Shown piece by piece: positions 2,615 through 56,990 of a stretch of 64,000 bases of DNA. Each line of letters opens with the position of its first letter. Within the stretch, counting starts at the first letter, position 1. The notes under the pieces were generated by a model, which saw only the letters and a program-made list of their open reading frames with translations, was not told where the DNA came from and searched no databases. This DNA is from an uncultured Chloroflexales bacterium (GTDB lineage: Bacteria > Chloroflexota > Chloroflexia > Chloroflexales > Chloroflexaceae), in assembly GCA_937918935.1 (NCBI GenBank), contig CAKZSI010000017.1, positions 1-64,000 of the forward strand. The letters run 5' to 3'. Both the position numbers and the translations under genes were made by a program.

Positions 2615-2633
2615 GGGAGGGCGTAGCCCTCCC
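2615..2633. terminator. GGGAGGGC/GCCCTCCC hairpin downstream of the ACBP gene
   Basis: A perfect 8-bp stem with a GTA loop lies about 30 bases past the ACBP stop codon. No T-run follows. It belongs to the dispersed module B hairpin family (consensus CTGGGAGGGC-n-GCCCTCCCAG) seen elsewhere in the window, so it may be a repeat that also serves as an RNA 3'-end structure. Confidence 0.5.
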
Positions 2634-2664
2634 AGAATCACCCCTGCCGACACTGGCGGGTCTC

Positions 2665-2931: not shown

Positions 2932-3061
2932 TGCTGCTCTCCTTGTGCTCAGAAACGGATGCGGCCGTGCGCATCGTAGCATCTGCCGCCGTGACGCGCA
3001 AGCGCGGGGCCGTTTCCGGGGAGAAAGGCGCCCTTTCGATCCTCCTCCGGGGCGACGGCGT

Positions 3062-3081
3062 GGGGAAACCCGGGTTGCCCC
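3062..3081. repeat. Dispersed palindrome, module A copy
   Basis: GGGGAAACCCGGGTTGCCCC is a near-perfect palindrome of the GGGGAAACC-n-GGTTTCCCC family that recurs at about ten places in this window. It lies between two divergently transcribed genes. Confidence 0.6.
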
Positions 3082-3164
3082 ACAGCTCTTCAACTGGCCG
3101 GCACGCCAGACACCCGACCGCCGGGCGTTTAATCAGAGGAACCGTGTCTGATCGGAGCATTCGT

Positions 3165-5165: not shown

Positions 5166-5171
5166 TGGAAA

Positions 5172-5196
5172 GGTGGGGGAACCTGGTTTCCCCACC
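5172..5196. repeat. Dispersed palindrome, module A copy
   Basis: GGTGGGGGAACC-T-GGTTTCCCCACC is an almost perfect 12-bp inverted repeat with a one-base centre. It starts seven bases after the preceding stop codon, between convergent genes. Confidence 0.65.
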
Positions 5197-5220
5197 ACCC
5201 CCTGCCCGGGGGGAGGAATT

Positions 5221-5259
5221 GAAGGGGGATGGGGACACCTGCTGTCCCCATCCCCCTTC
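5221..5259. terminator. 17-bp perfect hairpin between convergent genes
   Basis: GAAGGGGGATGGGGACA and its exact reverse complement are separated by CCTGC. The hairpin lies between the ends of the small helical protein gene and the kinase gene and could terminate or stabilise either transcript. It has no T-run and its arms resemble the dispersed repeats. Confidence 0.6.
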
Positions 5260-5268
5260 CGTGTCTGC

Positions 5269-7269
5269 TCAGGAGACCCGAAACAGCCGCCGGAGGCGCT
5301 GCCACCAGCGTGGGGCGTTGATCCGCACCGGGATCGTTACGGTGAGGGGAAGCGCCCCGGCCGCCAGGTGCAGGGCGATCTCCTGGGGGCCGTGGAGGTC
5401 TGCCGGGGGGAGCAACCGTAGCGCGATGCGGCCGGTGGACCACGCCTCGACGGTGGCGGGCGCGGCGGCCACCTCAACCCAGGGAGTGTGGCTCCGGCAA
5501 ACGAGGGGCGCCTCGGGCGCGGCCAGGTTGTCAATCTCGATCAGGGCATAGGTTGGCTCGCCGGCAATGAGCGGGCGCGCCGTTGTCTCGCTCAGACCGC
5601 GCACCTGGAGGATCGGGAAGCGGTCGGGCGCGAGGCTGTGGAGGAGTCGACCAATCAGCAGGCGTCGCTGAAGCGCGTCCGGGGCGGGGGCGCTTTCAAT
5701 CTCGCGGGCCAGATCGCGCCGCTTGATGGCCCGCAGCCAGCGCGCAAGCACACCCTGCGCCAGCAGGGCCTCCAACTCCGGCGCCAGGTCGGGATGGCGC
5801 AGGTCGAGGTCCTCCAGCCGCGCCACGTGCCGGCCCGCCAGCGGCACTCCCGCCCGGGCCTGCGCTTCCCATGGAATGCTCCAGCGATGCTGGCCACAGC
5901 GGAGGCGCAGCACGCCGGAACGCGCGCCTGCCTTGCCCATGGCCACCACCTCCAGGCGCATCTGTTCTCCCGCGGCAAGCACCCCGGCAGCACGGCGCTG
6001 CGCCTTGCCGGCGACGAGCACGCGCACGTCGGCATCGGGTTGCGCCGGGCACTCCAGTTCCCAGGAGAGCGGCGTCAGCGCGGCATTGGTCAACATCAAT
6101 GCCCGCGGCTGGCTCCAGATGCGCCAGGAACGCAGGGGGACGGCCCCCAGGTCCAGATGGGTCGGGGTGACCTGAAGTAACCCGCTACCCTCAGGCGGGG
6201 CCAGGGCCGCGAACAGCAGGTCCAGCGGATCGGCGCCGCGCGCCGGGGCCGCGAGCCGGGTCTGGCGCAGACGATAGCGCAGCGCGCCCAGGCCATCATC
6301 GGGATGGGCCGCGAACCAGCGCTCCAGACTGCCATCTGCCACTGCCCCGGCGAGGGCGCGGGGGTTGCGCTGCAGCGCCGTCTCCAGGTCGCGCCGGTCG
6401 CCCAGTTCGGGACCCCCGCCGAGGAACAGGCGCCGGGGCGGGGCAGGTGCGCCCAGCCGCGAGCGCAGAACGGCCGCGGTGGGGCAGCGTTCGTCCAGAT
6501 CGAAGGCCAGGGCCGAGCGCAGCCCGACGGCGAGCAGTGGCGCGACCCGTTCGAGATCCTCAAGGTTGAATTGCAGCGGCGCTGCGGCCGGGTCGTGACC
6601 GGTGAGCAATTCGTAACAGGTGACGGCGAGAGCGAAGACATCGGCGCGCTCGTCGAAAGTGCGACCGCCGAGTTGTTCGGGGGGCGCGTAGCCGGGCGTG
6701 CCGTGGCGCGGGCGTGTCGCCCGCGTGGCCCGCCGGGTGAGCGTATGTGCCGCCCCCAGGTCAATCAGCGCCAGGCTGCCATCGGGGCGCCGCACCAGAT
6801 TGGCCGGCTTGAGGTCCCCGACCACCACCGGCGGCTCACGGGTGTGCAGGTAGGTAAGCAGGTCGCACATCTGCACCGCCCAGACCTGCACCTGGCGCCA
6901 GGGCCAGGGTCCCTGACGCGCTAGAACGCTGAGCGGCTGGCCAGGGACCAGCTCGCGAGCGAGCCAGACGCGCTGCGGGCCACGCTCCAGACCGTACAGA
7001 CGCGGGAGGGCGGCGTGGCCCAGCCGCCGCAGCAGACCGGCTTCCCGGCGCAGCACTTCCTCGGCCTCGCGCCGCGCATCGGCGCCCAGGTCCTGGCGAG
7101 CAACCTTCACTGCCACCGGCGCGCCGCCGCGGCGCAGATCGACCGCCTGAAAGACAACCGCCTGTCCGCCCTGGCCGATCTGCGCTTCGAGGCGAAAGCG
7201 CGCCCCCAGGACCGCGCCAGCGGCCAGTTCGCCCTGATCCAGGCGTATGGTCTGGTGGACATCAGCCAT
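5269..7269 (-). CDS. Serine/threonine protein kinase with large C-terminal region
   Basis: The 666-residue protein has an N-terminal Hanks-type kinase domain (about 20-280): glycine loop IGQGGQAVVF (31-40), VAVK lysine K55, catalytic loop VVVGDLKPANLV with D152 and N157, metal-binding D170 in IDLG, and TPGYAPPEQ as the P+1/APE region. The usual His-Arg before the catalytic Asp is Val-Gly, so this is a non-RD kinase and probably not controlled by activation-loop phosphorylation in the usual way. Residues 280-666 hold a helical segment and two beta-rich, Ig-like stretches around LQVTPTHLDLGAVPL and FPILQVRGLSETTARPL. No membrane helix is present, so the enzyme is cytoplasmic. GGAAGG precedes the ATG; longer upstream starts give a basic extension. 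Confidence 0.88.
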   Translation of the reverse strand: MADVHQTIRLDQGELAAGAVLGARFRLEAQIGQGGQAVVFQAVDLRRGGAPVAVKVARQDLGADARREAEEVLRREAGLLRRLGHAALPRLYGLERGPQRVWLARELVPGQPLSVLARQGPWPWRQVQVWAVQMCDLLTYLHTREPPVVVGDLKPANLVRRPDGSLALIDLGAAHTLTRRATRATRPRHGTPGYAPPEQLGGRTFDERADVFALAVTCYELLTGHDPAAAPLQFNLEDLERVAPLLAVGLRSALAFDLDERCPTAAVLRSRLGAPAPPRRLFLGGGPELGDRRDLETALQRNPRALAGAVADGSLERWFAAHPDDGLGALRYRLRQTRLAAPARGADPLDLLFAALAPPEGSGLLQVTPTHLDLGAVPLRSWRIWSQPRALMLTNAALTPLSWELECPAQPDADVRVLVAGKAQRRAAGVLAAGEQMRLEVVAMGKAGARSGVLRLRCGQHRWSIPWEAQARAGVPLAGRHVARLEDLDLRHPDLAPELEALLAQGVLARWLRAIKRRDLAREIESAPAPDALQRRLLIGRLLHSLAPDRFPILQVRGLSETTARPLIAGEPTYALIEIDNLAAPEAPLVCRSHTPWVEVAAAPATVEAWSTGRIALRLLPPADLHGPQEIALHLAAGALPLTVTIPVRINAPRWWQRLRRLFRVS

Positions 7270-8591: not shown

Positions 8592-9104
8592 ATGTCCGAA
8601 CGACAGGAGTATACCGACGAAGAATGGGCGACCCTCATCAGCGCGCCCATCGCAGTGATCGCCGCGGTGATCGGCGCCAGCCCCAGCGGGCCGATCGGTA
8701 TTTCGCAGGAGGTGGCCGCCGCCGTGCGCGCCTTTGAAGACGCCGCTGAAACCCGCCGCTCCAATCCCCTCATCGCCGCCATGCTGGTCACCCTCCAGGA
8801 CCGCTTCAACGCCTATATCGGCAAAAGCGCCGACGACCCCGCAGTCAAACACATTGACATCTTCGCCCTGGGGCGTGACCCCGCCCGCGCCGTGGCCGCA
8901 TGCCGGGAGGCGGGCGAACTCCTGGCGCGCAAGGCGCCACCCGACACGACCGCCGAGGTGCGCGCATGGCTGATTGATCTGAGCCATCAGGTGGCGCAGG
9001 CCGCCATCGAGGGCGGGTTCATGGGCATGGGCGGCGAACGGGTTAACGAACGCGAACGCGCCATCCTCGCCGAGATTGCCGCGGCCCTGGAAGCAGGTGC
9101 ATGA
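8592..9104 (+). CDS. Conserved hypothetical protein, GFMGMGGERVNERE motif
   Basis: This 170-residue soluble, Ala-rich helical protein has no signal peptide. Its most conserved-looking parts are EEWATLISAPIAVIAAVIGASPSGPIG near the N-terminus and the C-terminal GGFMGMGGERVNERERAILAEIAAAL. I have the impression that proteins with such a C-terminal motif are widespread hypothetical proteins, but I cannot name a function. AAGGAG stands nine bases before the ATG. Its 12-bp distance from the APH-fold kinase gene suggests a functional link with that enzyme. Confidence 0.8.
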   Translation: MSERQEYTDEEWATLISAPIAVIAAVIGASPSGPIGISQEVAAAVRAFEDAAETRRSNPLIAAMLVTLQDRFNAYIGKSADDPAVKHIDIFALGRDPARAVAACREAGELLARKAPPDTTAEVRAWLIDLSHQVAQAAIEGGFMGMGGERVNERERAILAEIAAALEAGA

Positions 9105-9296
9105 GGTTCCGGGGAGGTCTACGCCCTTCCAGACACCTTCTCTCTCCTCAGGGCTTCATGCACATTCGGCCTTCGGCGGTGCGGTTGTTGGAAGAGCCAG
9201 GCTGCTCGGAAAAATCACCTGGAGTTCGGGGCTGGCCCCAGAGACGCTGCCTCAGCCCTGTCTCCTCCTGGCATACGGCGCGGGTCCATGGATACC

Positions 9297-9305
9297 TGGT
9301 ACAAT
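9297..9305 (+). promoter_or_regulatory. Extended -10 promoter TGGTACAAT in the 9105-9409 gap
   Basis: The 305-bp gap before the M16C protease contains no gene. Its one clear signal is TGGTACAAT, identical to the box before tgt at 25241. Transcription would begin near 9312, leaving a leader of about 98 bases before the ATG at 9410. I see no riboswitch or stable hairpin in that leader. Confidence 0.5.
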
Positions 9306-9409
9306 ACAAGGGTCAGATCAAATCTGCGACGCGCGCACGGACGCAAAAGCGCCAATTAGCACGCGCTCCACATTGACGCCGTTCCTGCCCAGCGAAAGCG
9401 AGCACCCCA

Positions 9410-18293: not shown

Positions 18294-18604
18294 GCTGGCT
18301 CCTTATCAGATCAGTTATGCTTCACACCTGCGTTGCTGTTTGGAGGGGCCCGGAGCGGCTGCACCCTCCGCGCCTCCCCGGAACAGTAACCCGTGAGGCC
18401 ACGCGGCCAACGGCCGAAAAGGGTTTTCCTGGGAGGGCGTCGTCCTCCCAGACCTTCCGATTGGTTCGAACAATTCTCCGGCATTCTACCCGCTGCCGCG
18501 CCGGCGGGCAGTAGCCCTTCGGTCCTGTTCCGATTCCCGCCCCCCGCCGATCTGCGGTATCATAGAAGGAACAATTGCCAATCGGACCAGCAGGAGATCC
18601 CCCG
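18294..18604. other. Intergenic gap with a module B hairpin
   Basis: This 311-bp gap between divergent genes holds no gene. CTGGGAGG and CCTCCCAG (18429-18451) form a module B hairpin with a seven-base loop, followed by GACCTTCC. A possible -10 box TATCAT (18558-18563) precedes the HD gene. Nothing else is recognisable. Confidence 0.5.
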
Positions 18605-19240
18605 ATGCTCACCGACCGCGCCCGTGAGACGCTCTACGCCTGGGTCGCCACCGATAGCCTGCGTAAACACTGCGAGGCCGTGTCGGCCTGCATGGTCCAC
18701 TTCGCCCGGCGGGGCGGCGCGGACGCCGACCTGTGGGGCGCCGTGGGCCTGCTCCACGATATGGACTTTGAACGTTACCCTGCTATGCCCGAAGGCACCC
18801 CGGAGGTGCACGCGCTGTCGCACGCCCTGATCGCCGGCGAGCCGGTACCCGAAACGCTGCCCGGGCATCCTTTCTACGGCGTGAAGTATCTGCGCGACGC
18901 CGGCTGGTCGCCCGAGGTGCTGCGCGCCATTCTCAGCCACGCCGATTACAGCGGCATCGCCCCGGAGTCGCCCCTGGAGCGCGCGCTCTATGCCGTGGAC
19001 GAACTGAGCGGTTTCGTGACCGCCGTGGCCCTGGTACGCCCGGATAAGTCGATCCACAGCGTCGAGGTGGCGTCGGTGAAGAAGAAGATGAAGGATAAGG
19101 CCTTCGCCGCCAGGGTCAGTCGCGAGGGTATTCGTCACAGCGCCGAGGTCATCGGCATGCCCCTCGATGATCTCATCGCCGAGGTGATCGCCGCGCTGCG
19201 CGCCGCCGCGCCGGGCCTGGGGTTGCAGGGCGCGGCGTGA
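18605..19240 (+). CDS. HD-domain phosphohydrolase
   Basis: This 211-residue cytoplasmic protein has an HD domain: an early His (H22 in RKHCEAVSACM), the metal-binding pair H51-D52 in VGLLHDMDFERYP, LSHADYSGI as the later His/Asp segment, and DELSGFVTA. It resembles the small stand-alone HDIG-type hydrolases of unknown substrate found next to biosynthetic genes. AGGAG eight bases ahead fixes the ATG. It lies 124 bp upstream of lysA in the same direction and may share its transcript. Confidence 0.85.
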   Translation: MLTDRARETLYAWVATDSLRKHCEAVSACMVHFARRGGADADLWGAVGLLHDMDFERYPAMPEGTPEVHALSHALIAGEPVPETLPGHPFYGVKYLRDAGWSPEVLRAILSHADYSGIAPESPLERALYAVDELSGFVTAVALVRPDKSIHSVEVASVKKKMKDKAFAARVSREGIRHSAEVIGMPLDDLIAEVIAALRAAAPGLGLQGAA

Positions 19241-19364: not shown

Positions 19365-20675
19365 ATGATGCTTCCCCGCCACATCTGGCCGGATACGGCG
19401 ACCATCAGCGACGACCGGCTCCACCTCGGTGGCTGCGACGCGAGGGCCCTCGCCGCTACCTATGGCACGCCCCTTTACGTGTTCGACGAGGCCACCCTGC
19501 GCGGCGCCATGCGCGCCTGCCTGGCGGCCTTCGAGCGCCAGGGTTTGCCCTTCGGGGTGCATTACGCCGCCAAGGCGCTGCTCAACACCGCGCTGGCCCA
19601 GATTGTCGCTCAGGAGGGGTTAGGGCTGGACGTCGTCTCCGGGGCCGAGTTACTGGTGGCGCGGCGCGCCAGCCTGCCGATGGAGCGGGTCCACTTCCAC
19701 GGCAACGCCCCCGGCGCCGCGGAACTGGAGCGCGCCGTGGCCTGGGGCGTCGGCGCGGTGGTGGTTGACAATCTCGATGAACTGGAACGTCTCGCTGCGC
19801 TGACAGCCGCCCGCGAGCGGCCGCAGGGCGTCATGCTGCGTGTGGCGCCGGACATTGAAGCGAGTACCCACCCCGCTATCGCCACCGGCGGCGCCGGCTC
19901 AAAGTTCGGCCTGCTCCCCGAAACCCTCGACACTGCCGCGGCGCGGCTGCGGGTCAGCCCTGGTCTGCGGTTCCTCGGGCTGCACGCGCATATCGGTTCA
20001 CAGATCTTCGACCTGGAAGCATTCCGCGCCACCGTGGCCGTCCTGGTGGATCTGGCGGCCCGCCTCCGCGCCCGCCATGGCCTGACAGCCGAAGAACTCA
20101 GCCCCGGCGGGGGTCTGGGCACGCCCTACCTGGCGGAAGAAGCCGCACCCGATGTTGCGGCCTACGCCGCGGCGCTGTGCGCCAGCCTGCGCGACCGCTG
20201 CGCCGCCCACGCCATGCCGCTGCCGCGCCTGACGGTCGAGCCAGGGCGCTCGATCGTCGCCCGGGCCGGCGTGGCCCTCTACACCGTGATGGGACGCAAA
20301 CTGGCCGCCGATGGGACGATACGGTACCTTCATGTTGACGGCGGCATGGCCGACAACCCGCGCCCGGCGCTCTACAATGCCCGCTACACCGCCCTGCTGG
20401 CTAATTGCGCCAGCGCGCCTCCCGGCCCGCCCGTCAGCGTCGCCGGACGCTACTGTGAGTCGGGTGATGTGCTGTTGCGCGATGTCTCGCTCCCTCCTGC
20501 GCAACCCGGCGATCTCCTGGCCGTCGCCACCACCGGGGCCTACACCCTTAGCATGGCCAGCGCCTACAATCTGGCGCCCCGGCCCGCCGCTGTTCTTGTG
20601 GCCGAGGGGCGCGCCCGCCTCATCCAGCGCCGCGAGACCGAAGATGACCTGCTCGCGCGCGACGTGCCGTTGTGA
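19365..20675 (+). CDS. lysA: Diaminopimelate decarboxylase
   Basis: This 436-residue fold-type III PLP enzyme converts meso-diaminopimelate to lysine, the last step of lysine synthesis. The PLP lysine is K70 in VHYAAKALLN. Also present are LGLDVVSGAEL, FHGN, HAHIGSQI, SPGGGLGTPY, VEPGRSIVARAG and CESGDVLL, where the Cys supplies the partner subunit's active site. The ATG at 19365 (or the next codon, 19368) puts the N-terminus where the family begins; the frame extends upstream without homology. No good ribosome-binding site is visible. Confidence 0.92.
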   Translation: MMLPRHIWPDTATISDDRLHLGGCDARALAATYGTPLYVFDEATLRGAMRACLAAFERQGLPFGVHYAAKALLNTALAQIVAQEGLGLDVVSGAELLVARRASLPMERVHFHGNAPGAAELERAVAWGVGAVVVDNLDELERLAALTAARERPQGVMLRVAPDIEASTHPAIATGGAGSKFGLLPETLDTAAARLRVSPGLRFLGLHAHIGSQIFDLEAFRATVAVLVDLAARLRARHGLTAEELSPGGGLGTPYLAEEAAPDVAAYAAALCASLRDRCAAHAMPLPRLTVEPGRSIVARAGVALYTVMGRKLAADGTIRYLHVDGGMADNPRPALYNARYTALLANCASAPPGPPVSVAGRYCESGDVLLRDVSLPPAQPGDLLAVATTGAYTLSMASAYNLAPRPAAVLVAEGRARLIQRRETEDDLLARDVPL

Positions 20676-20770
20676 GGTATGGGGAAACCTGGTTTCCCCA
20701 TACCCCTGCCTCCTGAGAGGGCAAAGCTCTCGCACTCCCTAGCCCGTTGAGGGTCTGGGAGGGCCGCGGT
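20676..20770. repeat. Composite dispersed element, modules A and B
   Basis: GGTATGGGGAAACC-T-GGTTTCCCCATACC (20676-20704) is a perfect 14-bp module A palindrome starting immediately after the lysA stop. It is followed by CCTGCC and a module B stretch (GAGAGGGCAAAGCTCTC, GAGGGTCTGGGAGGGCC). It separates convergent lysA and the DUF445 gene and may end both transcripts. Confidence 0.7.
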
Positions 20771-22310: not shown

Positions 22311-22341
22311 TCCGGGAGAGCTTCGTCCTCCCCGACCCTGC
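22311..22341. repeat. Dispersed element, module B copy
   Basis: CTCCGGGAGAGCTTCGTCCTCCCCGACCC is a degenerate copy of the CTGGGAGGGC-n-GCCCTCCCAGACC hairpin. It lies in the 629-bp gap upstream of the FG-GAP gene. Confidence 0.5.
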
Positions 22342-22415
22342 CGTGTTGGCAAGCTACAAGAGATTATACCGCTTCTCGATTGCTTCACGTGGAGCGTCCA
22401 CCTCTGGAGCGTGCC

Positions 22416-22648: not shown

Positions 22649-25057
22649 GTGTTGGTCACCCCGTCGCACCTGGCGTCGGCTTGTCCAGGCTTCGGCCTGC
22701 GGCGCCTGCTCCTCACCCTGCTCCTTATCCTGCCGCTGCTGCCCCTGATGAGCAGCCCCATTCCCGTACTCCGCCCGCGACTCGTAGGAAACGGCGCGCC
22801 GGCCCGTCTGCTCTCCACCTCCTCCGGCGCCCCGGCCTGGCCCGACGTGCGACGCCTGCTGGCCCCGCCCGCCTACCATCCCCGGGCCAGCGCCAGTGGC
22901 TACCGCGCCGCCAACCCCCGCCAGGGCTGGGGCGTGAGCTTCGCCCCCGACGGCACGGTGAGCCTGCGGCCCGAGCAGGGGGCCGCCTGGAACTGGGGAC
23001 TGCGCCTCGCCGCCTATGGCTACAACGACCCCCAGACGCTCACCCGTCCCGTGCTGGTAAGCGCCGGCGGTCCCCAGGTACGCTACGTCTGGGGCCAGGC
23101 CCTTACCGAGTGGTGGGTTAATCGCCCCGATGGCCTCGAACAGGGCTTCACGCTGGAACGGCGGCCAGCGGGCGCGGACGGGCGGACGCCGCTACGTCTG
23201 TGGCTCGCCACCCGGGGGGACCTGCGCCCGGTGGTGGCCGAAGACGCAGTGCGCTTCGTTGATCGCGCCGGGAACACGGTGCTACACTATCATTCCCTGC
23301 GGGCCTGGGACGCAACCGGGCGGGACGTAGCCGGGCACATGGAAGTGCACGACGGGTATGTAACACTGGCCCTCGACGATGCCGCAGCCACCTACCCGCT
23401 GACGATCGACCCCACCGTGCAGACCGCCTACCTCAAAGCCTCCAACGCCGGCGCCAACGACGAGTTCGCCTACACCGTCGCCATTGACGGCGACACTATC
23501 GTCGTCGGTGCGCGTTTTGAAGACAGCGGCAACCCCGCCGACCCCAACGACAACAGCGCCCAGGACACCGGCGCAGTCTACGTGTTTACCCGCAGTGGCG
23601 CCGCCTGGATGCAGCAGGCCTATCTGAAGGCCGCCATTCGCGATCCGGGAGATGACTTTGGATTCTCCGTCGCCATTGATGGTGACACCATCGTCGTCGG
23701 CGCCTCGGGCGAAGAGAGCGGCGCCGGCGACCCCAACGACAACAGTCGCACCGACTCCGGCGCGGCCTACGTCTTCGTCCGCAACGGAACCACCTGGTCG
23801 CAACAGGCGTACCTCAAGCCGAGCAATCCCGACGTTGGCGACCTTGCGGGTCGCTCCGTGGCCATCTCGGGCGACACCGTTGTTATCGGCGCCTACAACG
23901 AAGACAGCGGCAACCCCGCCGACCCCAACGACAACAGCGCCTCCAACGCTGGCGCGGCCTACGTCTTCGTTCGCAGCGGAACCACCTGGTCGCAACAGGC
24001 ATACCTCAAGGCCGCCAACGCCGGTGCGGAGGACCAGTTCGGGCGTTCGGTCGCGATTGCTGGCAACACGATCGTGGTTGGCGCACCCTATGAGGATAGC
24101 AGCACTCCCGGCAACCCGAATGACAATGACGCCAACAACGCGGGTGCGGCATACGTATTTACGCGCAGTGGCACGACGTGGACCCAGCGCGCCTACCTCA
24201 AGGCCAGCAGCATCGGCGCCGGTGATCAGTTTGGCTATGCCGTTGCACTCACCGGCAACACCCTCGTTGCCGGCGCACCGGGCGAGAGCGGTTCCGGCGC
24301 CGTCTACGTCTTCACCGGCGGCGACGCAAGCTGGACACAACAGGCTTTTCTCAAAGCCGCCAACGCCGGAATCGGAGACTACTTCGGCGCCTTCGTCGCC
24401 ATCAACGGTGATATTCTGGCAGTCGGAGCGCCAGGGGAGGACAGCGGCAATCCCGCCGATCCGAACGACAACAGCGCCCCCGATGCCGGCGCCGCCTATG
24501 TCTTCACGCGCAGCGGTGCGACCTGGACGCAGCGGGTCTATCTCAAGGCCGCCAACGCCCAGGCAGACGATCTCTTCGGCGTCTCGACCGCCGTCTCCGG
24601 CGACATCGTGGTCGTCGGCGCACCCTACGAGGACGGCAGCGGTCCCACACCGAACGAAAACGCCCCCAACGCTGGCGCCGCCTACGTGTTCCTGAACGAC
24701 GACATCGCCCCTACCGTCATGGTCGAACAGGCCGCGGGGCAGCCCGACCCGGCGGCCAGCGGCCCGATCCTGTTCACCGCCGCCTTCAGCGAGCCGATCG
24801 ACGCCAGCACCTTTACCCCCAGCGACGTGACCCTCGGCGGCACGGCGGGCGGGCCACTCAGCGCCACCCTCACCCAGGTCAACGCCACCACCTTCACCAT
24901 CGCCGTCAGCGGCATGTGCAGCGCCGGAACGGTGACGGCCAGCATCCCCGCCGGGGCCGTCACCGACCTGTCGGGCAACTACAACACCGCCTCCACCAGC
25001 ACCGACAATACGGTGACGTTCGAGTACCGGGTGCTGCTGCCGCTAATCGTCAGGTAG
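22649..25057 (+). CDS. Secreted FG-GAP (integrin-alpha-like) beta-propeller protein
   Basis: The 802-residue protein has a signal peptide (hydrophobic RLLLTLLLILPLLPLMSSP, cleavage in the mid-40s), an unrecognised N-terminal region of about 220 residues (YRAANPRQGWGVSFAPDG...), then seven FG-GAP repeats of about 55-65 residues. Each repeat has the form (A/V)(Y/F)LKA.N...DxFG.SVAI.GDTIVVGAPxEDSG, the count expected for a closed seven-bladed propeller. A C-terminal Ig-like domain (FSEPIDASTFTPSDV...) and the tail YRVLLPLIVR follow. It is probably cell-surface or extracellular and adhesive. The GTG at 22649 is chosen because a perfect AAGGAGG lies six bases before it; the frame is open further upstream but without homology. 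Confidence 0.85.
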   Translation: MLVTPSHLASACPGFGLRRLLLTLLLILPLLPLMSSPIPVLRPRLVGNGAPARLLSTSSGAPAWPDVRRLLAPPAYHPRASASGYRAANPRQGWGVSFAPDGTVSLRPEQGAAWNWGLRLAAYGYNDPQTLTRPVLVSAGGPQVRYVWGQALTEWWVNRPDGLEQGFTLERRPAGADGRTPLRLWLATRGDLRPVVAEDAVRFVDRAGNTVLHYHSLRAWDATGRDVAGHMEVHDGYVTLALDDAAATYPLTIDPTVQTAYLKASNAGANDEFAYTVAIDGDTIVVGARFEDSGNPADPNDNSAQDTGAVYVFTRSGAAWMQQAYLKAAIRDPGDDFGFSVAIDGDTIVVGASGEESGAGDPNDNSRTDSGAAYVFVRNGTTWSQQAYLKPSNPDVGDLAGRSVAISGDTVVIGAYNEDSGNPADPNDNSASNAGAAYVFVRSGTTWSQQAYLKAANAGAEDQFGRSVAIAGNTIVVGAPYEDSSTPGNPNDNDANNAGAAYVFTRSGTTWTQRAYLKASSIGAGDQFGYAVALTGNTLVAGAPGESGSGAVYVFTGGDASWTQQAFLKAANAGIGDYFGAFVAINGDILAVGAPGEDSGNPADPNDNSAPDAGAAYVFTRSGATWTQRVYLKAANAQADDLFGVSTAVSGDIVVVGAPYEDGSGPTPNENAPNAGAAYVFLNDDIAPTVMVEQAAGQPDPAASGPILFTAAFSEPIDASTFTPSDVTLGGTAGGPLSATLTQVNATTFTIAVSGMCSAGTVTASIPAGAVTDLSGNYNTASTSTDNTVTFEYRVLLPLIVR

Positions 25058-28513: not shown

Positions 28514-28556
28514 GCCTAGAATGGCTGGTTCTGCATCATTTTTCGCTCCCGCGGGC

Positions 28557-28590
28557 GGAGGAGGTGGGAAACCGGGTTTCCCCGCCTCCT
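28557..28590. repeat. Dispersed palindrome, module A copy
   Basis: GGAGGAGGTGGGAAACC and GGGTTTCCCCGCCTCCTCC pair almost completely with no loop to speak of. It sits between the icd and nuo promoters, near the middle of the 617-bp gap. The rest of the gap holds promoters and AT-rich DNA but no gene. Confidence 0.65.
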
Positions 28591-28830
28591 CCCAACCCGC
28601 TCCGTAAGGGGTACGGGCCCCCAGATCCAGGCCGCTGCGCCTCACCGCGCAATAATGCCATATAATTCCAGCGCAGTGAAAAGAATTTGCACAGGGCGCG
28701 CACGATATTTTGCGCCATAGACAGGGGAGGAGGAGCGGGAATTGCCCATCGAACGCTTGATCCTTGTTTCACGATGATCGCACAGCAAAATTAAACCTAT
28801 TGCAATATGATCGCCCATCCATCGTGCACA

Positions 28831-31827: not shown

Positions 31828-32511
31828 ATGCTGCTCGAGACGCACAGGGCCGAAATCGAGACCATTCTCTCCCGCTACGACTCGCGGCGCAGCGCCGTGC
31901 TGCCGCTGCTCTACCTCGCGCAGGACATCTACGGCCACCTGACCGAGGCGGCCATTCGCGAGGTTGCCGCTATCCTTGACCTGCCGCCCACCGATGTCTT
32001 CGAGGTGGTCGGCTTCTACACCCTGTTCTACAACCGCCCCGTGGGAACCTGGGTGCTCCAGGTGTGTGACGATGTACCCTGCTGTTACCTCGGGGCCGAA
32101 GAACTGATCGCCGCCCTGAAGCAGAGCCTGGGGATCGCCGAGGAGCAGACCACCGGCGACGGGATGTTCACCCTCCAGCGGGTCAAGTGCCTGGCCGCCT
32201 GTGACCGCGCGCCGGTGTTGCAGGCCAATCTTGATTATGTCTATGATGTGACGCCCGAGCGGGTCAATGCACTCCTGGCCAACCTGCGTGCCCGCGCCGC
32301 CGAGGCCCGGCAGCGCGGCGTCAGCGGGCGCTTCGCCGAGGATTTTGAGTGGGGGCCCGACGGCGCCCTTGTGCCGATCGATCGCGCGGCGCCGTACCGC
32401 CCGCGCCACTTTCCCGCAGCGCCATCGCCCGCTCCGCCGGAACCCGAGCCCGTGCCCGAAGCCGATGCCGGGCATGACCGGCCCGCCGACCGCAAGGCTT
32501 CGCCGCTGTGA
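31828..32511 (+). CDS. nuoE: NADH-quinone oxidoreductase subunit E
   Basis: This 227-residue subunit binds the off-path [2Fe-2S] cluster N1a; the ligands lie in VCDDVPCCYLGAEE and CLAACDRAPV. The first 170 residues match the family. Residues about 190-227 are a Pro- and acid-rich tail (APSPAPPEPEPVPEADAGHD) not seen in typical members and probably flexible. GGTGA precedes the ATG in a 108-bp gap after nuoD. Confidence 0.94.
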   Translation: MLLETHRAEIETILSRYDSRRSAVLPLLYLAQDIYGHLTEAAIREVAAILDLPPTDVFEVVGFYTLFYNRPVGTWVLQVCDDVPCCYLGAEELIAALKQSLGIAEEQTTGDGMFTLQRVKCLAACDRAPVLQANLDYVYDVTPERVNALLANLRARAAEARQRGVSGRFAEDFEWGPDGALVPIDRAAPYRPRHFPAAPSPAPPEPEPVPEADAGHDRPADRKASPL

Positions 32512-32577: not shown

Positions 32578-33912
32578 ATGGGTCTGAGCGAGCATATTGT
32601 CATGCGGGAACTGGACGTTCCCGAGATCAACGACTTCGAGGTGTACTGTCGCCACGGGGGCTGGGAAGCCTATCGTATGGCCCTCAAGGAGAAGAACCCC
32701 GCCGACATTGTGGCGATGGTCAAGGAGTCGGGACTGCGGGGCCGCGGCGGCGCCGGGTTCCCCACCGGTGTCAAGTGGGGTTTTCTGCCTAAAGGGGTCT
32801 ATCCCCGCTATTTGCTGTGTAATTGTGATGAATCGGAGCCGGGCACGTTCAATAATCATCAAATTATTGATCGTAATCCCCATCAATTGATTGAAGGCGT
32901 GGCTCTTTCAGCCTATGCGATTGAGTGCCATACGGCCTATATCTATATGCGCGGCGAGTTCGCCGCGGCGGCGATTACCCTCGAACGGGCCATTGCCGCG
33001 GCCTACCGCGCCGGATTCCTGGGCCGGAACATCCTCGGCACGGGCTTCGATCTCGACATCTACGTGCATCGCGGCGCCGGGGCCTACATCTGTGGCGAAG
33101 AGACGGCACTGATGGAGTCGCTGGAAGGCAAGATCGGCCAGCCGCGCCTCAAGCCGCCCTTCCCCGCCGTGGCCGGGCTGTATGGCAAGCCGACGATCAT
33201 TAACAATGTCGAGACGCTTGCCAATGTGCCCCGCATCGTCGAGAAGGGCGTGGCCTGGTACCGCAGCCACGGCACTGAGAAGAGTCCCGGCACCAAGTGC
33301 TTCTCGCTCTCCGGCCACGTCAACCGCCCCGGCAACTACGAACTGCCCTTCGGCGTGCCGCTGCGCGAACTGATCGAAAGCCCCGAGTACGGCGGAGGCA
33401 TGCGCGGCGGCCGCCCGACGAAGATCATCATCCCCGGCGGGGCCTCGGCCCCCTGGCTGACCCACGAGCACCTCGATGTGCCCCTCGACTACGAGAGCGT
33501 CGCCGCCGCCGGTTCGATGCTCGGCTCCGGTGCGGTGATCGTCCTCGACGATACGGTAAAGGCCCCCCATGTGGCCTATAAGATGGACGAGTTCTTTAAG
33601 CACGAGTCCTGCGGGAAGTGTACCCCCTGCCGCGAGGGCACCCACTGGCTCGTCAGAGTGCTGCATCGTATCGCCGAAGAGGGCCACGCCGTACCCGAGG
33701 ATATTCCGACCCTGCACAGCATCTACAACCAGATGGCCGGAAACTGTTTCTGCCTCCTCGGTGAAAGCGCCGTGATGCCGATCAAGAGCGCCCTGGCGCT
33801 GTTTCCCGAGGAGTTCGAGGCCATCGTGGCGGCCAGTCGCCGCCATCCACACGGCAATGGGCATGGCGACGGCCGCCACGAGCCGGTGATCCCCCTGACG
33901 ACGAAGCGCTAG
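32578..33912 (+). CDS. nuoF: NADH-quinone oxidoreductase subunit F (NADH/FMN-binding)
   Basis: This 444-residue subunit binds NADH, FMN and the [4Fe-4S] cluster N3. GLRGRGGAGFPTGVKWGF is the FMN/NADH glycine loop, GAGAYICGEETALMESLEG is the second nucleotide motif, and the N3 ligands are ESCGKCTPCREG plus the later Cys in NCFCLLGE. It is the electron entry point of the complex. A GTG four codons upstream (32566) is an alternative start; neither has a strong ribosome-binding site. Confidence 0.95.
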   Translation: MGLSEHIVMRELDVPEINDFEVYCRHGGWEAYRMALKEKNPADIVAMVKESGLRGRGGAGFPTGVKWGFLPKGVYPRYLLCNCDESEPGTFNNHQIIDRNPHQLIEGVALSAYAIECHTAYIYMRGEFAAAAITLERAIAAAYRAGFLGRNILGTGFDLDIYVHRGAGAYICGEETALMESLEGKIGQPRLKPPFPAVAGLYGKPTIINNVETLANVPRIVEKGVAWYRSHGTEKSPGTKCFSLSGHVNRPGNYELPFGVPLRELIESPEYGGGMRGGRPTKIIIPGGASAPWLTHEHLDVPLDYESVAAAGSMLGSGAVIVLDDTVKAPHVAYKMDEFFKHESCGKCTPCREGTHWLVRVLHRIAEEGHAVPEDIPTLHSIYNQMAGNCFCLLGESAVMPIKSALALFPEEFEAIVAASRRHPHGNGHGDGRHEPVIPLTTKR

Positions 33913-33953
33913 GGGAGGGTTTCTGGGATGGCGAAGTCCTCCCCGTCCCTCCC
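33913..33953. repeat. Dispersed element, degenerate module B copy in the nuoF-nuoG gap
   Basis: GGGGAGGGTTTCTGGGATGG, then CGAAGTCCTCCCCGTCCCTCCC, forms an imperfect inverted repeat starting immediately after the nuoF stop codon. Confidence 0.45.
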
Positions 33954-38162: not shown

Positions 38163-38330
38163 GGAGATGTGACGAAACCTGCTTTGCTCACACGCCTGCC
38201 TGGAAGGGTCTGGGAGGGCTTTGTCCCCCCGAGAACACCGCGGTGAACATACGTCCGGCGCGGGAGGGTCTGCGAGGGCTGCGCCCTCCCAGGAAACCTT
38301 TTTTCCATACCTGTCATCCTGAAACACGCC
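38163..38330. repeat. Composite dispersed element in the nuoH-nuoI gap
   Basis: A degenerate module A (GTGACGAAACCTGCTTTGCTCAC) is followed by CGCCTGCC and two module B copies 60 bp apart (AGGGTCTGGGAGGGCT and AGGGTCTGCGAGGGCT). The second completes a GAGGGC-TGC-GCCCTC hairpin (38274-38288), and TTTTTT follows 12 bases later, so it could act as an internal terminator or processing site. Confidence 0.65.
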
Positions 38331-38849: not shown

Positions 38850-38916
38850 GGCATGGTATCAGGCCCCCTGCCACGGCAGCCCGCTGCCGGGCGTCAGAGC
38901 ACTCCCACGGGCAGGG

Positions 38917-38943
38917 GTGTGGGGGAACCTGGTCGCCCCACGC
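38917..38943. repeat. Dispersed palindrome, module A copy in the nuoI-nuoJ gap
   Basis: GTGTGGGGGAACCTGGTCGCCCCACGC is an imperfect module A palindrome. It is preceded by GGGCAGGGGT, the same linker seen (in this orientation) beside other copies. Confidence 0.55.
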
Positions 38944-39014
38944 TCATCCGACCGGCTTTTTCAGGGCGCTCAGAGTACCGACAGCACATCCGGGTAGAGA
39001 TGAGGAGCAAACAC

Positions 39015-41831: not shown

Positions 41832-41867
41832 ATGAGTTGCACCGTTCGTGGAGTTTCGCCCCCTCCC

Positions 41868-41940
41868 CAATCCTCCCCCCGCGGGGGAGGGAGTCAGGCG
41901 CCTCCCTTCAACGGGAACAGGTCGGGGAGGAGGGGTCGTA
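41868..41940. repeat. Second dispersed repeat type in the nuoL-nuoM gap
   Basis: CGCCCCCTCCCCAA, a CCTCCCCC-n3-GGGGGAGG hairpin (41872-41890), then AGGCGCCTCCCTTCAACGGG resembles the sequence after the hydrolase gene at about 4537-4590. It fills most of the 150-bp gap. Confidence 0.5.
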
Positions 41941-50884: not shown

Positions 50885-51009
50885 TTCCCGCAGGGCGCGA
50901 CTCTCCCAGATGCTCCCACGCAGGGCCTGTAGGCGATCATAGGATCGCCACACCCTGCTGGACCCTCCAGTCCGGCGGGCCGGGGTATGGGGAAACCCGG
51001 TTTTCCCAT
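50885..51009. repeat. Composite dispersed element between CYTH and CHAD genes
   Basis: Module A (ATGGGGAAACCcGGTTTTCCCAT, 50987-51009) and a degenerate module B (CAGGGCGCGACTCTCCCAGATGCTCCC) lie in the 167-bp gap, directly after the CYTH stop. Confidence 0.6.
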
Positions 51010-51011
51010 CC

Positions 51012-51614
51012 TCACAGCGCGAGGGCGCGCTCCAGTTTGCTGCGCAGCTCGGGTGTCAGGGCGACGAGGGCCGCCAGTTCGCGGGCCAGGGCGCTCAGAT
51101 CGGCGGCTGTCCCGGCCTCGCGCAGTTCGATTTCAACCTCGGTAAAGGGGCGCTCGCGGGCGCCGGATCGCATGACGCCGCGGTCGAGGCAGAGTTCGGC
51201 GACCGGGACGCCGTCCCGCATGATATGCAGCACGCGCCGCTCGGTGCGGATCACCACCCGCGGCAGCAGCGGCGCGCCACCGGTAAGGGCAAGCGCCAGA
51301 TCGCGCGCGACGCCATGGGGCCAGGTCTGCGGATCGGGGTTGGCGCCGGGGAACTCGAACTCGGCCCGGCGATGCACGCCATCGTGACCGACATCAGCGG
51401 GACCCTTGAGGGTGATCAGTGAGCGTTCGCCGATCCGTCGCACCCGCAGGCCGTGGCGCGCGGCAGTAAGACGCCCGTCGGCAGTATCATAATAGGTGTT
51501 TTCTTGTAGTTCTGGCGCCGATGCCGGCGCGACTGTGTACGCGCCCAGTTGCTTGATAGTGGCAAGGATTTCCAGATCAGCGCCGCTCACGGTGTATTTG
51601 GCTTCGATTTCCAT
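51012..51614 (-). CDS. CYTH domain phosphohydrolase
   Basis: This 200-residue protein begins MEIEAKY, the ExExK signature (E2, E4, K6) of CYTH tunnel-fold enzymes that act on triphosphate compounds such as inorganic triphosphate or thiamine triphosphate. NTYYDTADGRL, GLRVRRIGERSLITLKGP and ELCLDRGVM supply the further charged strands of the tunnel. The ATG at 51614 gives exactly the family N-terminus, although no ribosome-binding site is visible. Being next to a CHAD gene fits the frequent CYTH-CHAD association in polyphosphate metabolism. Confidence 0.92.
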   Translation of the reverse strand: MEIEAKYTVSGADLEILATIKQLGAYTVAPASAPELQENTYYDTADGRLTAARHGLRVRRIGERSLITLKGPADVGHDGVHRRAEFEFPGANPDPQTWPHGVARDLALALTGGAPLLPRVVIRTERRVLHIMRDGVPVAELCLDRGVMRSGARERPFTEVEIELREAGTAADLSALARELAALVALTPELRSKLERALAL

Positions 51615-53914: not shown

Positions 53915-55438
53915 ATGCTCATCCGTCTGGCGCTGGCCTGGATGCTGGGGATCGTTGTTGCGGAGCAGGCCCGCCCCGCGACGGGATGGCTCTGGGCCGG
54001 CGCGGGGGCGAGTTTGCTCGCGGCACTGGCGCTGCACGGCGAGCGGCGGCAGCGGATGCGCCTGGCGGCCCTGATGCTGCTGTGCGCCACGCTGGGTGGA
54101 CTTCGCTACCTGAGCACACTGCCAACTCTGGGGCCGCAGAGTGTCACCAGCCTGGTGGAGCAGGGTGAGGTGACGCTCACCGGCAGCGTGGCCGGCGAGC
54201 CGCGCCGCAACGAGGAGCAACAGCGTGTAACCCTGCGGGTCGAAACGGCCACAGTGGCCGGGCGGACGGCGGCCTACGAGGGCCAGGTGCTGGTGGTCTT
54301 GCCGCCCTACCCGACCTATGGCTACGGCGATCGGCTCCAGGTTCGGGGCGAACTGCGCCGGCCGCGACCCGCCGAACGACCCGGCGAGTTCGATTACCGG
54401 GCCTACCTGGCCCACCGGGGCATCTTCGTCATGCTGACCGGGCCAGAAGAGGCGCACCAGATGCCGGGCAGGCGCGGGCTGGCGCCGCTGGCGGCGGTGC
54501 TCGCCTTTCGCGCCCATTGCCAGGCAATTCTGCTACGCTCCTTGCCCGAACCACAGGCCGCTCTGGCCATCGGCGTAGTGCTGGGCATTCAGTCGAGCAT
54601 TCCCGATGAAGTGTACCGAACCTTTTCGATCACCGGCACGAGCCACATCCTGGTCGTCTCAGGATGGAACTTCACGATTGTTGCGGGAATGCTGGGGGCG
54701 CTGGCAACGCGCCTGCGTCTGGGGCGCGGGGCGACCCTGGCGCTGGCGCTGGTCGTAATGTGGGTCTATGCCGTCTTTACGGGGGCCTCGGCGGCGGTGC
54801 TGCGGGCGGCGGCGATGGCGAGCCTGGCAGCCATCGCCCGCGCCACCGACCGGAGCACCGAGCCATGGCATCTGCTTTTTGGCGCCTGCTGGCTGATCAG
54901 CCTGGCGGACCCGCACACGCTCTGGGATCTGGGCTTCCAACTCTCGGCGCTGGCGACGGCCAGTCTCTTCGCCTATGGCGCGCCAGTGGCGGCGTGGTTT
55001 AACCAGCGCCAGCCCTTCAACTGGCCGGTCATGGCCCCGGTGACGGAGGCCCTGGTGGCCACCTTCGCGGCGCAGGTGCTCACGCTGCCGCTGATCCTCT
55101 ACACCTTTGGCAACCTCTCGCTGGTGGCGCCGCTGGCCAATGTGGTCATCGTGCCGGTAGTGCCGTTCGCGATGGGCCTGGGGGCAATCACGCTGCTGGG
55201 CGGCCTGGTGTGGCTGCCGCTGGGGCAATGTCTGGCGCCGGGGGCCTGGCTGCCACTGACGTGGATTGCCGAAGGAGCGCGCCTGCTCGCTGCGCCGCGC
55301 TGGGCCAGCGCGCAAATGCCCCCTTTTCCCCTGTGGATGCTCATCGTCTGGTACCTGCTGATTGCCCTGCACTGGTGGAGAAGCCGATTTCCAGGAGAGC
55401 CTTGCCCTCCCGAAACTTCCCATCAGGCAGAGGCGTAG
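53915..55438 (+). CDS. ComEC/Rec2 family DNA-uptake channel protein without nuclease domain
   Basis: This 507-residue membrane protein has an N-terminal pair of helices, a soluble OB-fold-like DUF4131 region (about 80-190, with YGDRLQVRGELRRPRPAERPGEFDYRAYLAHRGI) and the competence domain (about 210-490, with VLGIQSSIPDEVYRTFSITGTSHILVVSGWNFTIVAGML and FTGASAAVLRAAAMASL). ComEC carries single-stranded DNA across the inner membrane during natural transformation. The C-terminal metallo-beta-lactamase nuclease domain is absent. The last 15 or so residues (PGEPCPPETSHQAEA) are encoded by a copy of the dispersed repeat. GGAGAG precedes the ATG. Confidence 0.88.
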   Translation: MLIRLALAWMLGIVVAEQARPATGWLWAGAGASLLAALALHGERRQRMRLAALMLLCATLGGLRYLSTLPTLGPQSVTSLVEQGEVTLTGSVAGEPRRNEEQQRVTLRVETATVAGRTAAYEGQVLVVLPPYPTYGYGDRLQVRGELRRPRPAERPGEFDYRAYLAHRGIFVMLTGPEEAHQMPGRRGLAPLAAVLAFRAHCQAILLRSLPEPQAALAIGVVLGIQSSIPDEVYRTFSITGTSHILVVSGWNFTIVAGMLGALATRLRLGRGATLALALVVMWVYAVFTGASAAVLRAAAMASLAAIARATDRSTEPWHLLFGACWLISLADPHTLWDLGFQLSALATASLFAYGAPVAAWFNQRQPFNWPVMAPVTEALVATFAAQVLTLPLILYTFGNLSLVAPLANVVIVPVVPFAMGLGAITLLGGLVWLPLGQCLAPGAWLPLTWIAEGARLLAAPRWASAQMPPFPLWMLIVWYLLIALHWWRSRFPGEPCPPETSHQAEA

Positions 55439-55460
55439 GAAAAGCAGGTTTCCCTTCGCC
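55393..55460. repeat. Composite dispersed element overlapping the 3' end of comEC
   Basis: Module B (AGGAGAGC-CTT-GCCCTCCC), the linker CATCAGGCAGAGGCG and a degenerate module A (TAGGAAAAGCAGGTTTCCC) occur in the same order as near 56930-56990. The module B half and linker are translated as the ComEC tail. Confidence 0.65.
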
Positions 55461-55478
55461 CCTTCAGGCGAGCAACGA

Positions 55479-55639: not shown

Positions 55640-55662
55640 CTGGGAGGGCAGCGTACTCCCAG
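55640..55662. repeat. Dispersed element, module B copy
   Basis: CTGGGAG and CTCCCAG pair around nine bases in the leader downstream of the two promoters. Confidence 0.5.
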
Positions 55663-55803
55663 ATGCTCATGTCTGCGAACGTACCAATGCGCCGCCAGAA
55701 CGACGAGCAGACCTTATGTTGATGGGGGGGAAGGACTACCCCCCGCCGTTTTTCCCAGACCTTGCAGCAAGGAGAGATACCACAGCGCCACGGAGAACGT
55801 CGT

Positions 55804-56358: not shown

Positions 56359-56913
56359 ATGCTCTATGCGCCTGACCTTACGCCGTTGATTCAGGCCATT
56401 CATGACGCGCCGCCGCGCCTTGTGTACGTCTTTGCCGGGGCGGGCAGCCTGGCGCTGCACTGGCTCCACGCGGTCGCCGGTTCGTCGCGCACGCTGCTGG
56501 AGGCCCGCGACTGCTACGCGCCGCGCAGCCTGGCCGCCGTCCTCGGCGCGCCACCCGCCCGGGCCGTCAGCGTCGAAACGGCCAGCACAATGGCCACGTG
56601 GGCCTGGAACCACGCCGCCAACCTCGCCGAGGACCCCTGGCCGCTGCTCGGCGTGGGCTGCACGGCGGCCATTGCCAGCGACCGGGCGCGCCGGGGCGCT
56701 GACCGGGCCGTGGTCGCTGTGCGTTCGGCCAGCGCTACGCGGATCTACGAACTGTTTCTCGACAAGGAGCACCGCGACCGGGCCGCCGAAGAGGAACTGA
56801 TCAGCCGCCTGGTCATCCTGGCGATCGCCGAGGGCTGCGGGATGGAACGGGCGAGCCTGACGTTGGGTCCCGAGGAGGCCCTGCGCGTGACGCATTACCC
56901 GACCCCTGCGTAA
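56359..56913 (+). CDS. CinA-like (nicotinamide-nucleotide amidase-related) protein
   Basis: The 184-residue soluble protein resembles the CinA C-terminal fold: VYVFAGAGSLALHWLHAVAGSSRTLLEARDCYAPRSLAAVLG corresponds to the substrate-binding start, and GVGCTAAIASDRARRGADRAVVAV to the conserved central part. The latter is the variant also seen in CinA-like domains attached to nucleotidyltransferases. Typical CinA has ESCTGG near the N-terminus; here AGAGSLA replaces it, so amidase activity is uncertain. The ATG is placed by the promoter just upstream. Confidence 0.6.
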   Translation: MLYAPDLTPLIQAIHDAPPRLVYVFAGAGSLALHWLHAVAGSSRTLLEARDCYAPRSLAAVLGAPPARAVSVETASTMATWAWNHAANLAEDPWPLLGVGCTAAIASDRARRGADRAVVAVRSASATRIYELFLDKEHRDRAAEEELISRLVILAIAEGCGMERASLTLGPEEALRVTHYPTPA

Positions 56914-56929
56914 AACTACGTTCTGGAAT

Positions 56930-56990
56930 GACGAAGCCCTCCCAGACCCTCCCATCAGGCAGGGGCACAATCCTCCCAGCCCTCCCGCCG
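56930..56990. repeat. Composite dispersed element, module B and linker
   Basis: TTCTGGAATGACGAAGCCC, TCCCAGACCCTCCC and CATCAGGCAGGGGC, followed by a second CCTCCCAGCCCTCCC, fill the gap before the endonuclease III gene. The linker matches that after comEC. Confidence 0.55.

Follow-up and report, generated by a model that had tools for sequence, protein, structure and literature searches.

Decayed hairpin mosaics, probably of a non-autonomous mobile element, in one Chloroflexaceae genus

What is the palindromic sequence that lies directly behind a stop codon near position 20,676 of the window (the whole 64,000-nucleotide stretch analysed here), and why does it recur in the intergenic DNA around it? 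The preliminary description presented it as a pairing of two palindromes, module A (GGGGAAACC-n-GGTTTCCCC) and module B (CTGGGAGGGC-n-GCCCTCCCAG), and both modules are indeed hairpins. The copy itself (20675..20770, plus strand, E 2.9e-11) starts with an A hairpin immediately 3' of the upstream gene's TGA stop (20673-20675), reading TGA GGTATGGGGAAACCTGGTTTCCCCATACCCCTGCCTCC and then passing through a degenerate stretch to CTGGGAGGGC. Module A is perfect here (20679-20703) and is followed by a CCCTGCC linker and the degenerate remainder, but module B survives only as its left half, CTGGGAGGGC at 20755; the fold of the copy has a z-score of -4.1. All 14 positions at which the family had been listed in the window fall on A hairpins, B hairpins or both. 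A covariance model of A-linker-B, trained on 28 genome-wide copies of which one came from the window (55389..55461, a match by construction), detects all but one of the 14 at E<0.01; the fourteenth, at 55640, has E 0.049.

That training sequence (minus strand; 68 bits, E 2.1e-16) is the best complete A-linker-B of the window. The exact linker-plus-B core (CCTGCCTGATGGGAGGGTCTGGGAGGGC) recurs at 56906..56984 (minus strand, E 4e-11) beside a degenerate A. Further A-linker-B copies lie at 38165..38248 (plus strand, E 2.5e-7), in an intergenic gap that is different in all four sister species (G001 to G004, the window's own genome being G000), and at 50937..51015 (minus strand, E 4.6e-10), right behind the TGA stop of a minus-strand gene, where G003 has the copy and G001 and G002 do not. 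The first of these is adjoined by a second B copy with a GGAAACCTTTTTT tail (38239..38305, plus strand; A-linker-B model match at 38239-38294, E 3e-5). At 5169..5264 (plus strand, E 4.6e-10) another A-like hairpin (GGGGACACCTGCTGTCCCC) lies behind module A, and a degenerate A with linker at 38894..38951 (minus strand, E 4.8e-8) is missing from the sister species. Lone A hairpins occur at 28536..28595 (E 5.5e-6) and 3015..3093 (E 2e-5), both on the minus strand. Module B stands at 18405..18458 (minus strand, E 1e-5) with a GGAAAACCCTTTTC tail, in degenerate form at 22312..22344 (minus strand, E 4e-4), as a lone hairpin at 2615..2652 (plus strand, detected by profile and covariance model) and at 33911..33953 (minus strand), a site recognised by the covariance model and by sister comparison, since the same place is cleaner in G002 and G003 and holds a full A-linker-B in G004. 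Weak, degenerate B modules complete the set at 55640..55668 (minus strand), the fourteenth site already mentioned, and at 9099..9152 (minus strand; profile E 0.0004, covariance model E 0.1), which had not been listed before. No Rfam family matched above its gathering score in the window or in three stretches of G004. The best reading of these sites is that they are relics of a family of hairpin mosaics.

Such a family should be visible well beyond the window, and it is. The pattern A+CCCCTGCC occurs 338 times in G000 and 13, 228, 463 and 1500 times in G001 to G004 respectively, with no match to the reversed pattern in any of them; a linker-plus-B pattern gives 33 matches in the whole G000 genome, compared with 1 in the reversed control. 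When 464 kb of G000 were searched with a profile built from 29 copies, there were 147 matches at E<0.01 (108 once opposite-strand overlaps are removed), and none in the same DNA reversed. In 56 other genomes of the same family and order there are 0-4 matches to A+CCCCTGCC each, and the reversed pattern again gave 0. Among 84,980 species scanned for exact matches, two assemblies only came up, the Chloroflexaceae MAG SKW209 and the uncultured Chloroflexi MAG SRR5214706_bin.4; we infer from agreeing match coordinates, for the second also on contigs of the same number, that they are G003 and G004 respectively. The A-plus-linker pattern had no exact match in viral contigs, a full G004 unit had no match in plasmids, and the literature searched yielded no paper on this repeat family. 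Among the searched genomes, then, the family is confined to one Chloroflexaceae genus of five species. The genome is 65% GC, and GC-rich intergenic DNA could in principle generate GC-rich hairpins by chance; we give this explanation virtually no credence, in view of the zero counts in reversed sequence and with reversed patterns and the lack of the family from dozens of related genomes.

How closely the two modules belong together is a separate matter. In the 464 kb of G000, a B lies no more than 70 nt from 22 of the 85 strict A modules, compared with 9.4 expected and a maximum of 17 in 200 random placements in intergenic DNA, and the A-to-B distances peak at 40-44 nt. The claimed excess of A-B pairs is thus borne out, and the order A-linker-B is kept wherever both are present, but most modules of either kind occur singly, so that the coupling is real but looser than had been implied.

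A-linker-B is recurrent, but the full element is larger, as near-fresh copies in the sister species G004 reveal. Its anatomy was drawn from ∼1.09 Mb of G004 picked for element-rich contigs, for which reason densities in this sample are biased. The left end is constant, CTGA(N)|GTGAAmATA, and so is the right end, ...TATkTTCATyc.GkCGTTGTGCGGCGCAGCCGCATGGAyGrCTR, or in shorter form ...TGCGGCnnnGCCGCATGGAyGrCTR; the latter consists of a hairpin, TGCGGCnnnGCCGCA, followed by TGGAyGrCTR. Across 51 full units of 105-297 nt, often arranged head to tail, these ends are constant and the interior is variable, being built of interchangeable hairpins: A, a GCCCGCCCGCGGGAGGG variant, B present one to three times, and a 48-nt B repeat. 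One 132-nt unit, taken as single-stranded DNA, folds into four hairpins (z -3.8). We considered the right-end pattern as a genus-wide feature and rejected this, since its 332 copies in G004, set against 0-3 in each of the other four genus members, mark it as a G004 expansion. G000 has other tails, for example GGATAACCTGGTTATCCGGACAGGC, and the ends thus also vary among species. At locus L106 (minus strand, 5289-5700) about five 69-nt A-module units lie in tandem behind a single left end, which suggests local amplification besides dispersal.

Does the family insert, or has it merely diverged in place? Orthologous gaps differ between the window and the sister species by whole elements. Behind the stop at window position 32511, G004 has a complete A-linker-B, and the window and G002 have none; at position 38163 it is G004 and G001 that have nothing. 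Clean empty sites defined at both ends were not obtained among orthologous gaps, because intergenic DNA is too diverged at ∼90% gene identity; these gaps also frequently carry repeats of their own. Left junctions could nevertheless be compared with a unit-free sister in four cases, chosen by eye from 36 alignments of which many others were uninformative. At the junction the unit-free sequences have CTGAG, CTAAT, CTG or CTA: CGCTGAG|CGGC in G001 corresponds to CGCTGAG|GTGAACATA in G004, and three G000 sequences, GGTCTAAT|ACC, CTCCTG|TTTCG and ACACTA|TGT, correspond in G004 to GGTCTGAT|GTGAACATA, CTCCTGAT|GTGAAAATA and ACACTAGC|GTGAACATA. These four junctions support the view that the CTR would already have been present before insertion, with the unit placed right behind it. 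Among 250 non-tandem G004 left ends, positions -5 to -2 are occupied by C in 230, T in 221, G in 214 and A in 221; the base that follows CTGA and precedes GTGAAmATA is G in 154, T in 61 and C in 29, and there is no base preference upstream of CTGA. The right end closes with CTR and is followed by variable sequence.

Constant ends, CTG- or CTA-like triplets at both boundaries and an inner inverted repeat (TGAACATA/TATGTTCA) are also what one might expect of MITE-like elements of a classical DDE transposon that makes a short target duplication of CTR or CTGA, and a short repeated CTR may be present. We regard a MITE origin as unlikely, since neither end forms a terminal inverted repeat with the other and IS110 and IS91 transposase families were not found in the genus genomes searched. 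Nor was a parental transposon, or any transposase bounded by the unit's ends, seen in the 1.09 Mb of G004, where 15 long left-end-to-right-end intervals of 0.4-6 kb may include an autonomous parent.

The distribution relative to genes is strongly skewed. By a simple codon-based caller, which assigns 84% of the sample as coding, 105 of the 108 G000 copies are non-coding, though non-coding sequence makes up 16% of the DNA. Between convergent genes there are 16 copies where 6.8 would be expected, and between divergent genes 13 where the expectation is 25.8. Where neighbouring genes run in tandem, 51 copies are closer to the stop of the upstream gene and 20 closer to the start (p=0.0003), in accord with the placement behind stop codons originally proposed. 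This position, together with the stability of the hairpins, would suit sequences selected by the host and retained as transcription terminators or mRNA 3'-end stabilisers. Orientation relative to genes is however evenly divided (35 same, 36 opposite), which disfavours a strand-specific terminator, and the copies lack the strand-specific placement, matching the upstream gene, that intrinsic terminators would show. Pairing in G000 is also decaying: 85.3% of stem cells are paired and ∼15% broken, and double changes, at 13 cells compared with 6.3 in shuffles, are few, most departures breaking the stem. Some palindromic double changes could stem from template-switch correction of quasi-palindromes. 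A covariation test for hairpin maintenance in G000 thus did not demonstrate selection on the copies in place, which, with stems broken and compensatory changes few, look like relics rather than selected sites. Since, in addition, the same gap has or lacks a copy depending on the species, and avoidance of genes and promoters accounts equally well for the position, retention for a host function appears very improbable.

Part of the stop-codon bias is explained by the junction itself. Of 187 left ends with an exact CTGA, 32 coincide with a stop codon, 145 are intergenic and 10 lie in predicted coding sequence; the CTGA tetranucleotides outside coding sequence number 2141 in all, and 189 of these are stop codons. 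Insertion at CTGA sites that lie outside genes therefore explains much, though not all, of the bias, and there is perhaps a further two-fold preference for stop codons.

Which enzyme might mobilise the family? The preliminary description pointed to a REP-associated (TnpA-REP) transposase. PF01797 (Y1_Tnp) has no match in G000, G002, G003 or G004 and one weak, partial match in G001. We rejected the conclusion that the genus has no RAYT (REP-associated tyrosine transposase), which these results had suggested, since with the RAYT model NF047646 each of the five genomes proves to have a divergent gene of the RAYT family or a fragment of one. The RAYT-family genes missed by Pfam Y1_Tnp are at L168 (600-1326, the G004 gene), L166 (1680-2535), L167 (minus strand) and L163 (1-250). 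In G003 and G004 the proteins retain MPNHLHGII or MPDHxH (an intact HUH) and Y...NP motifs; the G000 copy runs off the end of a contig, those of G001 and G002 look truncated, and several copies lie, by inspection of translations, beside type I restriction genes.

That the repeats are true REPs mobilised by this RAYT accords with their REP-like copy number, palindromes and proximity to stop codons, with the presence of the gene or a fragment of it throughout the genus and intact motifs in two species, and with the existence of a described TnpAY1 class with a CnGA foot (PMC6006769). The palindromes near the RAYT genes, however, are GTAG-tagged and of other sequence (GTAGAGACGTTGCATGCAACGTCTCTAC in G000, GTAGGGACGCAGCGCGCTGCGTCCCTAC in G003, GTAGGGGCAGGTTTCCAACCTGCCCC in G004 and GTAGGGGCAGGCACAGGGGCCTGCCCCT in G001), and no A-linker-B match directly adjoins the RAYT-like loci (L163-L169). 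In G000 a GTAG lies within 8 nt of the hairpin foot in 5 of 128 A, 1 of 124 B and 1 of 28 D hairpins, and in G004 in 3 of 1224, 2 of 910 and 16 of 488. The cut, truncated or restriction-associated state of several RAYT copies also weighs against them as drivers of the family, and we think it decidedly unlikely that they are. The proposed transposase partnership is accordingly not supported: the RAYT is present, but its adjoining repeats are other, GTAG-tagged REPs, and A and B lack that foot. Most simply, the RAYT would act on its own set of GTAG REPs and another factor would have spread the CTGA family, although one enzyme may be shared by both. GTAG-type palindromes (GTAGGGGCGCGGCG...) are found nested within CTGA elements, in the loop of the B hairpin, at L091 (minus strand, 18707-18884) and L104 (minus strand, 9051-9401). 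No searched transposase family (PF01797, NF047646, IS91, IS110) fits the element.

The family resembles GTAG REPs and BIMEs, which are associated with TnpAREP (RAYT), in its high-copy intergenic palindromes, mosaic arrays and location near stop codons; some GTAG REPs provide neighbouring ORFs with their TAG stop (PMC3733652). It shares the high intergenic copy number of GTAG REPs and REPtrons but has neither the 5' GTAG tag nor a RAYT flanked by the same repeats. No cognate RAYT was found, the junction is CTGA, and the units are longer, at 105-297 nt, and differ in their swappable modules between ends that stay constant; the GTAG REPs near the RAYT of the genus form a separate set. A BIME comprises two inverse REPs and a linker, often in tandem, and tandem arrays occur here too, but A and B are different palindromes rather than inverted copies of one. 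CGTC-tagged palindromic repeats (PMC3733652) are likewise dispersed and apparently have no dedicated transposase, yet the feet of A and B are not marked by a conserved CGTC (0 of 128 A, 1 of 124 B in G000). Class 3 TnpAY1 proteins are associated with CnGA-footed hairpins, for example ∼600 copies in Solibacter usitatus (PMC6006769). CnGA covers CTGA, and both cases involve atypical hairpins at high copy, but G000, G002, G003 and G004 have no IS200-like Y1 protein, and CTGA here borders the whole unit, not each hairpin. Subterminal hairpins, a fixed left tetranucleotide and the lack of an obvious long target duplication recall IS200/IS605-type non-autonomous elements, from which the family differs in that the PF01797 transposase is absent from the element-rich genomes.

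We conclude that the window probably holds decayed copies of a genus-specific, non-autonomous mobile DNA with the structure of a hairpin mosaic. The class first suggested, REP/BIME-like or non-autonomous, is broadly right: dispersal, non-coding location, stop-codon bias and insertion as judged by sister comparison are all supported, but the link to a REP transposase is not. The intact unit, as seen in G004, has its constant GTGAAmATA end and its constant hairpin right end enclosing one to several swappable modules (A, B and others). An enzyme acting in trans could recognise the ends with their hairpins, probably in single-stranded form, and join them at CTGA, so that copies would persist in non-coding DNA, often on CTGA stop codons; modules may be exchanged by template switching or recombination among copies. 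In G000 the family looks inactive and decaying. More tentatively, it is conceivable that these are self-spreading hairpin mosaics moved by no known REP, IS200/IS605, IS91 or IS110 enzyme, with single-strand-recognised constant ends, an exchangeable interior and CTGA-directed insertion at stop codons, and served by an unrecognised enzyme or by a host replication or repair process.

New here are the complete structure of the unit, its restriction to one genus, its junction at CTGA and its distinctness from the RAYT and GTAG REPs that the genus also carries. A resident RAYT accounts for many of the palindromes that are abundant in bacteria; in this genus a large palindromic family with another junction and no visible enzyme exists alongside a RAYT that has GTAG repeats of its own. 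The near-fresh copies of G004 and the decayed ones of its sisters provide a series in which to follow repeats of this kind from their origin through spread and module exchange to their loss, and a route to the missing enzyme. Small repeats tend to lie near gene ends, and targeting of a stop-like tetranucleotide can explain part of this tendency.

Finally, the window contains repeats of other kinds. A different GC-rich dispersed repeat (CCCCCTCCCCAATCCTCCCCC...) at 41855-41935 has dozens of copies in G002 and G003, at 79-88% identity. A near-perfect 61-bp tandem duplication (98% identical) opens the window at 1-122, and about six 192-bp coding repeats at 23430-24700, within one large predicted ORF, suggest a repeat-domain protein.
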